This document shows positions 43,001-49,000 of a DNA stretch of 64,000 nt, piece by piece. The notes under the pieces were generated by a model. The model made no database searches. It saw only the letters and a program-made list of their open reading frames with translations, and was not told the origin of the DNA. How positions within the stretch are numbered: the first letter of the stretch is position 1; the number at the start of each line of letters is the position of its first letter. The translations under genes were made by a program, and so were the position numbers. This stretch comes from Mugil cephalus (lineage: Eukaryota > Chordata > Actinopteri > Mugiliformes > Mugilidae): positions 434,001 to 498,000 of the forward strand of contig NC_061773.1 of assembly GCF_022458985.1 (NCBI RefSeq). The letters run 5' to 3'.

Positions 43001-46000
43001 CCGGGTGCCACTCCTGTCAGCTAAGAACAGGAAACTGAGACTAAAGTTCAGGTTGCCAAAATTAGACAATAGAAGATTGGAAAAATGCTGCTTGGTCTGC
43101 CTAGTGTTGATCCCAGCTGCGACATTTGGATGGCAGGGTCAGAATTTGGTGTAAACAACATGAAAGCATGGATCTATTCTGCCTTGTGACAGTTCAGGCT
43201 GCTGTTGGTGGTGTAATGGTGTGGGGGATAATTGGCACATTTTGTGCCCCTTAGTACAAATTGAGCATTGTTTAAAGCTACTGCAGTGGGGTCGCGGACG
43301 CCCTGTTGAAGATCTGTGTACTACATACATATCCATATATATATGTATATGTGTATGTGTATGCGTGTGTGTGTATACATAATCCGCTTACAACTTGCGT
43401 GTCCACTGGTCCACAGTGAAGTCACAATAACAATTAGCATCTGCTCTCTAAACCAAGAAACTGCTGTTAAAACTCATTAAAGGCTGTTACGTATGTCACA
43501 GGAAGTTTGTTCTCCTCACAAAACAATGTCATTTTCTGGGAGTTCTGGGAGTAGGGTACAAAAGCTCTATTTAAAAGCAAGACCATTTACCATATGCTGC
43601 AGTGGGAGGGCCCTACGAGGCACTATAAATTGAACTGAACTAGCAAGAACAAATTTCTTGTTTCTTGTTCAGAGTATGTAACAAGCTTTATAGTATAAAA
43701 TACAGACCCTGCTGTTCCCCTGATGCTTGAGCTGCTCTGTGGGCCGCTTCATGGCTGTAAGCTGTGATCACTGCCATAACAATCATCAACATCGTGAATT
43801 GAGCCAACACTGTTGCAGAACCTCCTCTAGGTTACAAACTGGTTTGAGAGCATTTAAAGTCAATTCTGTAAATCGATGACTCAGCATCATCCAAGGATCA
43901 CAAAGATACCTTGTTTGTAAATTTCGTGTACGGTTCAAAAGTTACGGGCGCAAATGTACTTCCAACTTTGACCCATTGGTGGCGCTAGAGCGTACTTACT
44001 GGCAACATGTAACTCAGGCAAATTAAAGTGTGCAAAATTTCACAACTTTTTACCATACGGTTCTATGGGCTGCCATAGACTCCAATGGCAGAAGACGGCA
44101 GAATAACAATAGTAATAATAAGAAAACGTAGAAAAACAATGGGTTCCAGCAGCTTCGCTGCTTGGACCCCAATAATACTAACAATAATAGCCAATAATAC
44201 TAACAATGGGGTACAAAAAATATATCATGACATATATTGTATTCAGTATGACAAAGGGCTCACCATGGCCAAATGTGTTTTCACTATCTATAGAAATAAC
44301 ATTTTTCCAATTACTAATTTAACTTAGAAAGTTAAACCATCAGGAAAGAGCAGATACTCACCACACCAGTTGAACTGTTCACACCGCTTAAGTTGATTTT
44401 GTTCACAAAACGGACATGAGGGGGGTGCTCTGGGTATCTAGGTCCACAGTCTATTTTCAGACTGTATATCCTGCCTTCATAGACAGTCTGCAATTAAAGA
44501 GACCACACCAATCAAAGTCCAATGAATTATGTTACAGGTTACTTTCTGCCACTGCAACAAGTCTACCAACATCATACTATGAGCCACAATACTAACCCTA
44601 ACTAAATAACTAGCACACGCGCTTTCTTTTTCTAAAGCCCGACAACACGTAACTCAGATGATCTGTTAACATCACTTGATTTAATATATGGACGCAAGTA
44701 AAAAAAATGTAATTAGTTAAACTAGATAAACCTTCTAAGTTGCAAACTTTATTTCTTAAGTTGTGATCAAATAATAATGTTGGTGATTACATCAAATTAA
44801 TTTTGTATCATTTATACTCAAATTTCATTGTTGGTGGGTTTAAAACAAAATTCAAGTTGTTGTAACTTAAAAAACATAGCTTGATAATATAATTTTATGA
44901 TAACATTGACTTTACAAGTTTAAGTTCCCTCTCATACCCACACAACACGCCTGGACTAGTTCTGAGCAGAGACGGTGTGTTCTACTAAGGCTGAACAACC
45001 TTGATAAAAACAACATTTCATGGTGAGTAAAATGGGTTTACATTTGTTTCAGTGACTGTGTGCCCAGCAAGAGAGAGCTGTTGGGAAAAGGATTATTCAC
45101 ATTTAGCTCATTGCATACGGCTGCCAGCTACATGCTAATATTACCCACTGTCACAGCCACAATTTAGGCAAACTGTGTAAATTTGAAAACTTCCCACACA
45201 CTGGGTTGTTACAACACAGGTTACGTCATGGCCATCGTGGGGAACGTATGCCATTTATTCACCATGTTTTTGTTCATTTAAAACATAGCTAATTATTTGC
45301 TTCATGTTATGCTCCACGGATAAATGATCCACAGATAAATGATGAGTTCAAAAGAATAACCCCGGTAAACCTGGAAGCGACTTTCATGGCCCGGAAACTA
45401 ATGGATGTGGTTTCATCAAGAGGAGATTCAGGAGCAAGGATCAGTCAGATTAAGGAGGTATGGTAATTATTTAGAGTTTGCCTCTTTTTGAAATGCACTC
45501 TTGTAGATTATACTCATTTGAATACTATAGTCTGGCACCAGCACTGCCCTTTTTCCATATAGCACAACACAATTGAAATGCGGAGAGGAGTAGCCATCCG
45601 GTGCCTGGTTGTATACCTTGGAGAAAAAGAAGAAGATTTGTTCCAAGAGTCTGGGGTAAGTAATGTAATATTATAAAATAGAAATAAATTCTTATTGAGC
45701 ATAGTGTAAAGGCAGAGGTAGAAGATTGCTCCTGCGCTACAAATTGCCAGTTTGATTTTTTTTTTAAAAGGGAAATTCCGGCATAATCTTAACCCAGGGT
45801 CAAACACAGTGGAATGGGACACTATTTGTACTATAGTACTACTAATATTGAAGTATGGTGCTTTTGTGAGCATGTGGCTACCAGTGGTTTATTTGATCTC
45901 AGACTCAGTCTGTGAGATCCTAGGTTAAAATTAAGATGGAATTTCTTTTTAAGTACAATGTACTTCATACCACATCAGCATGATAAATGACTGTTAACAG

Positions 46001-49000
46001 CAATGTAAAGGATAAGACAAACCAATGACTGTTTACTGGTTCAGTGATTTTATGCAACCTAAAAAGCATCCAGAAAAATATCAAGATGAACAGACTGAAA
46101 GTTAATTGCAAAACATGGAAGACAATAATTCCCTCTTTTTTTTTCTTTTTTTTTTTTGCTTTACAAGGACAATGAAGAGTTCGAGACCAGTTTTGAAAGT
46201 CACGTGATGAAAATTGCCAACGTTGGAGACAGGTCTAGATGACTGGATGACAGCAATTACCATGGAAGGAACCAAATGTTTCATTGAGAAGGATATTCCA
46301 AGGTCCAGTGCCTTGATGATGGACATAATTACAGAATACATAACACATAAGGAATTACATAATGCTTTTGTCACTGAGGAGCAGCTGAAATTTGAAATTT
46401 TTCTTATAGTTCAAAATAATAAGAAAAATTGCAAAAGCAGTGGTTGTACTGTCTTTCTTGAAAGCTACTACATTACCAAAAACAAACAAACAAAAAACTA
46501 CAAAAAAGAAGAAAAATACCCCAGAAGAAAATGTAATTGGAGCAACAGACTTTTTTTATGTTGCTGCTACTTAAAAAGTTGTGTGCATTATTATCGTGAT
46601 TAACTAGACAACAAATATAAGTACTTTATAATGACATGGTAAAGCTAGTTGGAGTAACTTAAATTTTATGAATTATCAACTTAAAAACTTGAGTTTAGTC
46701 TAAGCGTTATTAAGTAAGCAGTACTTAATAGAATCTTTGACTGAAAAAGAAAAGCTAATTCGCCCTAAGTAATACAGTTGGTTTGTTCAATGTAATTGAG
46801 GGTCCAAGCAGTGAAGCTGCTGGAACCGATTGTTTGTCTACCTTTTTGGGGTCCAAGCAGCAAAGCTGCTGGAACCCATTGTGTTTCTACGTTTTCTTCT
46901 TCTTCTTCTTCTTCTTATCATTCCGTCTTCTGCCATTGGAGTCTATGGCAGCCCATAGAACCTTATGGTAAAAAGTTGTGAAATTTTGCACATTGGTTAA
47001 GGACAGTAGGATTTCGATGTGAGCTCATATCTCAGGAACAGTGATGACACCAAATTTGGTTTCATTAGGCCACTCGGGGGCGCTGCAGGTAGCAAAAATA
47101 TCGTGTTGGCTCATATAACTTGATTTGTTTGCATGTAGGCCTGAACTGCTTTTCATTTCCCACTAGGGGGAGCTCAAAGACCACACATTTTCAACTGTCT
47201 CTTCATATGAACCACTGCTTGCCCATTTTTTTCATATCTCTCCCACAGGAGGAGCTCAAAAGCCGCACATCTCGGCTGTTTTCTAATTTCTGTTCATATG
47301 AACCGCGGGTTTTTTGCATCTCCCCATGGCGTTATCTTTCTGTATGCAGTCCATAACTGCTTGGACCCCTCATTGCTCCTCGCAGCTATATTTGGGGTCC
47401 AAGCAGCAAAGCTGTTGGAACCCATTGTTTTTCTACGTTTTTGGGGTCCAAGCAGCGAAGCTGCGAGGAACCCCATTGTTAGTATTATTGGGGGTCCAAG
47501 CAGCGAAGCTGCTGGAACCCATTGTTTTTCTACGTTTTCTTATTATTACTATTGTTATTCTGCCGTCTTCTGCCATTGGAGTCTATGGCAGCCCATAGAA
47601 CCGTATGGTAAAAAGTTGTGAAATTTTGCACACTTTAATTTGCCTGAGTTACATGTTGCCAGTAAGTACGCTCTAGCGCCACCAATGGGTCAAAGTTGGA
47701 AGTACATTTGCGCCCGTAACTTTTGAACCGTACACGAAATTTACAAACAAGGTATCTTTGTGATCCTTGGATGATGCTGAGTTCAGCCTACCCTATGCCG
47801 TCAAAATGCGTCATGATAGATTTTCTGCCATCTTGGATTTTGTCAAAAACCTTTAAAAAGTTTCACACGTCGCAAATTTTGTCCGATTCTCACAAAAATC
47901 GGCACAGACTATCTTTAGACCAAGCTGCACAAAAGTTAATTGCTGTCCTCGCCGTCGCATATGTACGCCCACCACAGCCAATCAAATGTGGCGGCGAAGG
48001 CGCTGTTTTCGATGTGAGCTCATATCTCGGCAACGGTGAGACATATTGACATCATATTTGAGAATATGGGCCTTGATTCGGGTCCCAAGTGGACACCATG
48101 AATTTGGTGTCGTTTGGCCTCTAGGGGGCGATGTAATTAGAAAAACATGGTTTTTGCTCATATCTCTTGGTGGGTTTATATTTGAAATGACTTTGTGAAA
48201 TCCACACTTACTGTGGGGTGCCCCATTGATGGTTAATGCCAACTTTTCATGTTAGCCAATCGTTATTGGCGGCACCGCCAAACAGGAAGTTTGCTCTTAT
48301 CTCGGCGACGCTTTGACTTCCGAAGACCAAACTTGGTCGGACGCCTCAGGATGCCCTCCGAAATATGCAATAAAAATTTGGTGTCATTCGGCCACTAGGG
48401 GGCGCTGGTATTAAAAAATTGCATTTTTGCTCTTTTCTCTTGACATGTTAGGATTTCAGAGTAAATTTTCATGTTTGTTGAAACTGTGGAATGTCCCATT
48501 TCAGCATCTTGCAAAACTTTTCACGCAATCGCAAGAACTTTTCCGCCATATTGGATTTTGTCAAAAACCTTTAAAAAGATTCACGGGTCGTAAATGTTGT
48601 CCGATTCTCATGAAAATTGGCACAGACTATCTTTAGACCGAGCCGCACAAAAGTTACTTAGTGCCATTTTCATTGTCCAATCCGTTTTCCCGCTACAGCC
48701 AATCAAAATTGCTGGCAGAGCCACCAACCAAGAAGTCAGCTCATATTTCCGCCAGTCCTTTGGCAATTCGCTCAAAACTTCTCGTCTAGCCTTATGGTCA
48801 ATTGACCTATGTTCTTGGACCCCCTCATTGCTGCATGCAGCTATATTTTTTCAAATTAAGTTGTCACAACTAAGAAAGACTAATGGAAACAGTTTTTTTT
48901 GTTGAGTGTAAACATTTCTTTTTAGAGTTTAGGAAGCGATGAATCACAATTATGAAGCAGGCTTTGCACTAACACAACCAAGATGCATTTGAGATCTTCG

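Follow-up and report, generated by a model that had tools for sequence, protein, structure and literature searches.

How an exon of a conserved gene comes to lie between two long and perfectly matching inverted sequences, and what such a pair may do to the transcript, are the questions raised by a window of 64,000 nucleotides from the fish Mugil cephalus (contig NC_061773.1, positions 434,001 to 498,000 of the forward strand). Coordinates given below are those of the window.

An inverted pair around exon 3 of a ube2v1-like gene

Three exons of a UBE2V1/UBE2V2-type gene were placed on the minus strand. Splice sites were read for exon 2 (50319–50467) and for the coding part of exon 4 up to the stop codon (39938–40084), and exon 3 (44362–44487, 42 residues) was confirmed by sequence to have the predicted length of 126 nt and phase 0 on both sides, with AG and GT borders. 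The best matches of the 42-residue product of exon 3 were solved UBE2V1 and UBE2V2 chains (best E 9.5e-18), and the joined product of exons 2–4 matched the Pfam family UQ_con (E 6.7e-18). These matches assign the gene to the UBE2V type, and its name is kept here as ube2v1-like. Intron 3 also contains a short tandem array with a AGTTAGCACAGTTAGCC-like unit (40642–40824), and a plus-strand, spliced-looking gene fragment of three exon-like pieces, for which Pfam gave no hit at E values of 1 or below, lies between the two inverted sequences at 45347–46242. No known RNA family reached its gathering score between 40 and 52 kb.

Direct comparison of positions 47491–47782 with the reverse complement of 43879–44170 gave identity at 292 of 292 positions, as stated in the original prediction, and this ungapped identity broke off sharply at either end. 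When a gap was allowed the match extended further, and the whole of 47470–47782 (313 bp) was contained within 43879–44212 (334 bp), all 313 aligned bases being identical and the only interruption being one gap of 21 bp, at which the left arm has an extra near-copy of a short spacer. The left arm (hereafter L; 43879–44212, minus strand, including the 21-bp extra piece near 44170–44190) lies in intron 3, and the right arm (hereafter R; 47470–47782, plus strand) in intron 2, inside a longer family copy; exon coordinates and splice sites thus bear out the predicted placement of the arms on either side of exon 3. The distance from the exon 3 donor downstream to L is 191 nt, a figure that replaces the 146 bases predicted, and R lies 3,003 nt upstream of the exon 3 acceptor.

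The two introns flanking exon 3 therefore carry complementary sequences, forming a reverse complementary match. The 292-bp pair was the longest of 26 inverted pairs in 40085–50330 (25 of them shown). Each of the next four (47–96 nt) joined the left arm to related sequence in intron 2, so that exon 3 is flanked by these pairs as well; a second, weaker partner of the left arm was located in intron 2 at 46848–46992 (plus strand), about 90% identical over 145 bp. Inverted pairs within a single intron did not exceed 29 nt among the 25 shown.

The arms belong to a multi-copy repeat family

A genome search with the arm sequence gave at least 102 matches from the 40 scored of 174 first-look candidates, evidencing a multi-copy repeat family; the list is incomplete, the copy within the window at 14952–15286 being missing from it. 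This last copy (plus strand) was 79% identical to the arm, in keeping with the earlier claim that the family sequence at 14.6–16.2 kb is diverged. Apart from the arms themselves, the next best-scoring match was 88% identical (40 of 174 candidates scored). Shorter pieces of the arm matched better elsewhere: among the matches listed, identity reached 93% over query bases 1–150 on contig C2, and 97–100% over 35–62 bases at the hairpin end of the arm.

Alignments of family copies placed R within a longer, old repeat-family sequence spanning at least 46795–48850 (plus strand), in which hairpin-like modules, one of which was folded, begin at about 46800, 46848, 47394, 47444 and 47491. Such modules, of about 49–69 bp, form head-to-tail clusters at 46800–47540 and at 14604–15005, in each case at one end of a family copy. 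Patterns taken from the hairpin end, 30 and 32 bases long, had no exact match in a prokaryote genome collection or in viral contigs, and 47491–48800 had none in phage records, as expected for a fish repeat. In 20 long family stretches that were fetched, open reading frames of at least 140 residues were present (the 30 longest being listed) and no telomere-repeat locus was found.

Of the 40 best places in the arm search, 34 were within 1 Mb of a contig end, or 32 of 38 when the arms were left out (best 40 of 174 candidates). For a control repeat taken from the window the figure was 23 of 40 (best 40 of 1679 candidates), or 20 of 37 once the repeat itself and its two hits on C24, a contig of 601 kb, were removed. 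Regions this close to an end make up about 7% of the genome, assuming 23 large contigs (22 of 24 measured). Repeats thus lean to chromosome ends in this genome, the arm family more strongly, in these top-scoring lists. One family copy was found deep inside C1 (C1:35522483), a contig of 54 Mb that is the longest of the 22 measured, and might mark an old chromosome fusion. Two further inverted pairs were observed in the window. That at 37581–39149 and 61651–63390 is 88–90% identical and consists of a repeat present in many copies (a first look gave 1679 candidates, of which 40 were scored). That at 17800–18081 and 21767–22062 is 90% identical, its sequence being found at only four places in the genome, of which the other two are about 0.2 and 0.1 Mb from the ends of C15 and C19.

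The arms share private mutations

The relationship between the two arms was assessed in an alignment of 23 rows, comprising R, L, the 15-kb copy and 20 fetched copies, the latter drawn from the 38 non-arm places among the 40 best. The nearest of the 21 other sampled copies differed from the arms by substitutions at 4.2% of compared sites. Given this, the identity of the arms is, on sequence grounds, not attributable to chance: two copies 4.2% apart would be identical over 292 sites with a probability of about 4e-6, counting substitutions only. At 36 of the 353 alignment columns R and L agreed against the majority of the 21 other rows, and in 21 of these 36 the shared state was found in no other row. 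A 20-bp deletion accounts for 17 of these private columns (of the 20 that it spans), a 2-bp deletion for two, its full length, and substitutions for the remaining two. When the 635-Mb genome was searched for the junction of the longer deletion, with at most one mismatch allowed, there were exactly two occurrences, L and R containing one each; a search for the arm subtype by this junction thus gave no other genomic copy. One arm is therefore identical to a nearby candidate donor, the donor's private mutations included, as is found in templated insertions. Divergence between R and the 20 copies was mostly lower in the arm than in neighbouring stretches (with the exception of copies L016 and L018, in which the next stretch was less diverged), a comparison from which we draw no conclusion, the 20 copies having been picked by similarity to the arm.

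Likely direction of copying

The surroundings of the two arms differ. R continues past 47782 into sequence common to most aligned copies, 14 of the 20 fetched copies aligning with its surroundings over more than 1 kb. L ends at the corresponding point and runs at both edges into intron sequence that does not belong to the family. The 149-base right flank of L had one place in the genome, itself. For the 379-base left flank, short matches elsewhere were limited to query bases 41–190, and the 189 bases adjoining L had no match elsewhere (40 of 188 candidates scored for this left flank). Since L shares private indels with R and is set in intron sequence without matches elsewhere, the simplest reading is that it was recently copied, in inverted orientation, from part of R, the direction R to L resting on parsimony.

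A search for a target-site duplication at L gave no clear one: the best candidate measured 4 nt, a length reached or exceeded by 364 of 2,000 random placements. The right edge of L corresponds to a position five bases inside a second hairpin-like module of R, which would fit polymerase stalling or template exchange at that point.

Origin of the pair

Combined, these observations make it probable that the pair arose recently, by a templated duplication that was both local and inverted. Some 313 bp of R, part of an old family copy in intron 2, would have served as template, and the copy would have been inserted the other way round in intron 3, about 3.3 kb from its source, to give L. As the copy is a fragment without a clear target-site duplication, the likeliest route would be template switching or the templated repair of a break, an insertion mechanism that, like the direction, we infer from sequence. 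As a by-product, the ube2v1-like pre-mRNA would have gained a 292-bp perfect reverse complementary match around exon 3. The 21-bp gap that separates the copies at one edge was counted against this reading.

The original prediction had left duplication and gene conversion side by side. Duplication stands, on the shared private indels and on the position of L in unmatched intron sequence, with R the likely source, and conversion is not needed. If L were an older copy homogenised with R by conversion in either direction, identical arms would likewise result, and inverted pairs a few kilobases apart are able to convert. The location about 0.48 Mb from a contig end would also suit such an event, crossovers in male teleosts being described in PMC8824383 as enriched towards chromosome ends. 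However, all the family-like sequence seen at L matches R, and no diverged family remnant was seen outside the identical tract, which makes conversion an unlikely origin.

Membership of the arms in a family with at least 102 matches (40 scored of 174 candidates) would agree with a young transposon family having inserted twice independently, each copy being close to an active master. This was rejected as very improbable, given that the nearest of 21 sampled copies is already 4.2% diverged and that the deletion junction is present at two places only; the lack of a target-site duplication found at L also argues against it. Identical inverted copies a few kilobases apart are sites where assemblers can err, and an assembly or polishing artefact was therefore considered; L, however, lies between flanking sequences not shared with R and differs from it by 21 bp, neither of which is expected of a simple fold-back error, so that an artefact is very unlikely. 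Duplication from R into intron 3 is accordingly preferred to these readings.

A broader scenario, to which we give little credence, is that hairpin-module repeat copies, common near the chromosome ends of this fish, repeatedly seed short inverted self-copies by template switching, yielding perfect exon-flanking RNA hairpins in single steps without transposition, with the product here acting as an exon 3 switch that lowers functional Ube2v1. Were it true, perfect RNA hairpins could arise around exons with no transposition involved.

Predicted consequences for the transcript

The expectation that the arms can form a long duplex around exon 3 holds as a prediction: the duplex of the two arms has a predicted energy of −569 kcal/mol, to be compared with −71 and −77 kcal/mol for the arms alone, and the weaker intron 2 partner paired with the left arm gives a predicted −233 kcal/mol. 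A strong duplex around the exon is thus predicted. Duplex formation, editing, skipping and circularisation are known general consequences of such pairs, and plausible ones here. Judging from the sequence pair, the most likely outcome would be nuclear duplex formation with A-to-I editing of the arms, which we consider reasonably probable. Low-level skipping of exon 3 is a possible minor product, and a 126-nt exon 3 circle a less likely one.

Published systems illustrate the range of these outcomes. According to PMC8330042, back-splicing as well as the skipping of exons is promoted by reverse complementary matches in C. elegans, and ADAR editing can either stabilise or weaken such pairs, as stated in PMC8938519. 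Single-exon circles derive from long exons, with medians of 169–253 nt in PMC6376117. PMC4479058 describes exon length as a strong predictor of circularisation in fission yeast, and states that in mammals flanking inverted repeats are not sufficient for circles. The shortness of exon 3 (126 nt) and the distance of the far arm (3,003 nt) argue against efficient exon 3 circles. The product of skipping would probably be non-functional, since the 42 residues lost lie within the UQ_con match.

The same features bear on whether the pair could have been selected for a regulatory role, through the production of a functional ube2v1 exon 3 circle or exon-skipped isoform. The C. elegans precedent, in which matches of this type promote back-splicing and skipping (PMC8330042), and the in-frame length of exon 3 (126 nt) would fit such a role. 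The pair looks recent, however, exon 3 is small, 3,003 nt separate it from the far arm and skipping deletes 42 residues inside the UQ_con match, all of which make selection for this purpose highly doubtful.

Relation to known systems

Like inverted Alu pairs and other reverse complementary matches that flank exons, the present pair has long complementary arms in both introns around one exon. Alu pairs consist of two elements that were inserted separately; here, one arm appears to be a perfect and recent copy of a fragment of an old repeat. Short-range template switching and templated insertions, as presented in part of PMC7954356, likewise involve a tract copied from nearby, inverted and without a clear target-site duplication, and the same extract describes atypical secondary structure at template-switch loci, a trait comparable to the location of one edge of L in a hairpin-like module. 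The present case differs in that about 313 bp would have come from 3.3 kb away, the mechanism being deduced from one genome. A likeness also exists to inverted-repeat-mediated recurrent inversions, the topic of PMC3961182 going by its listing, in that recombination between inverted identical tracts could invert the intervening segment, but the arms here are short and known from one assembly. In the part of the UBE2V1 and circular-RNA literature that was searched, no title on this exon 3 inverted pair was found.

The principle is thus a known one and the instance is clean, which makes the locus a good natural test case but not a novel type of system. The sequence here lets one trace how an exon-flanking inverted pair arose, with the likely donor, the likely direction of copying and how recent the event appears to be. 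Should there be individuals or close relatives without the left arm, they would allow a direct comparison, with and without a perfect 292-bp pair, of its effects on the splicing and editing of a conserved gene.
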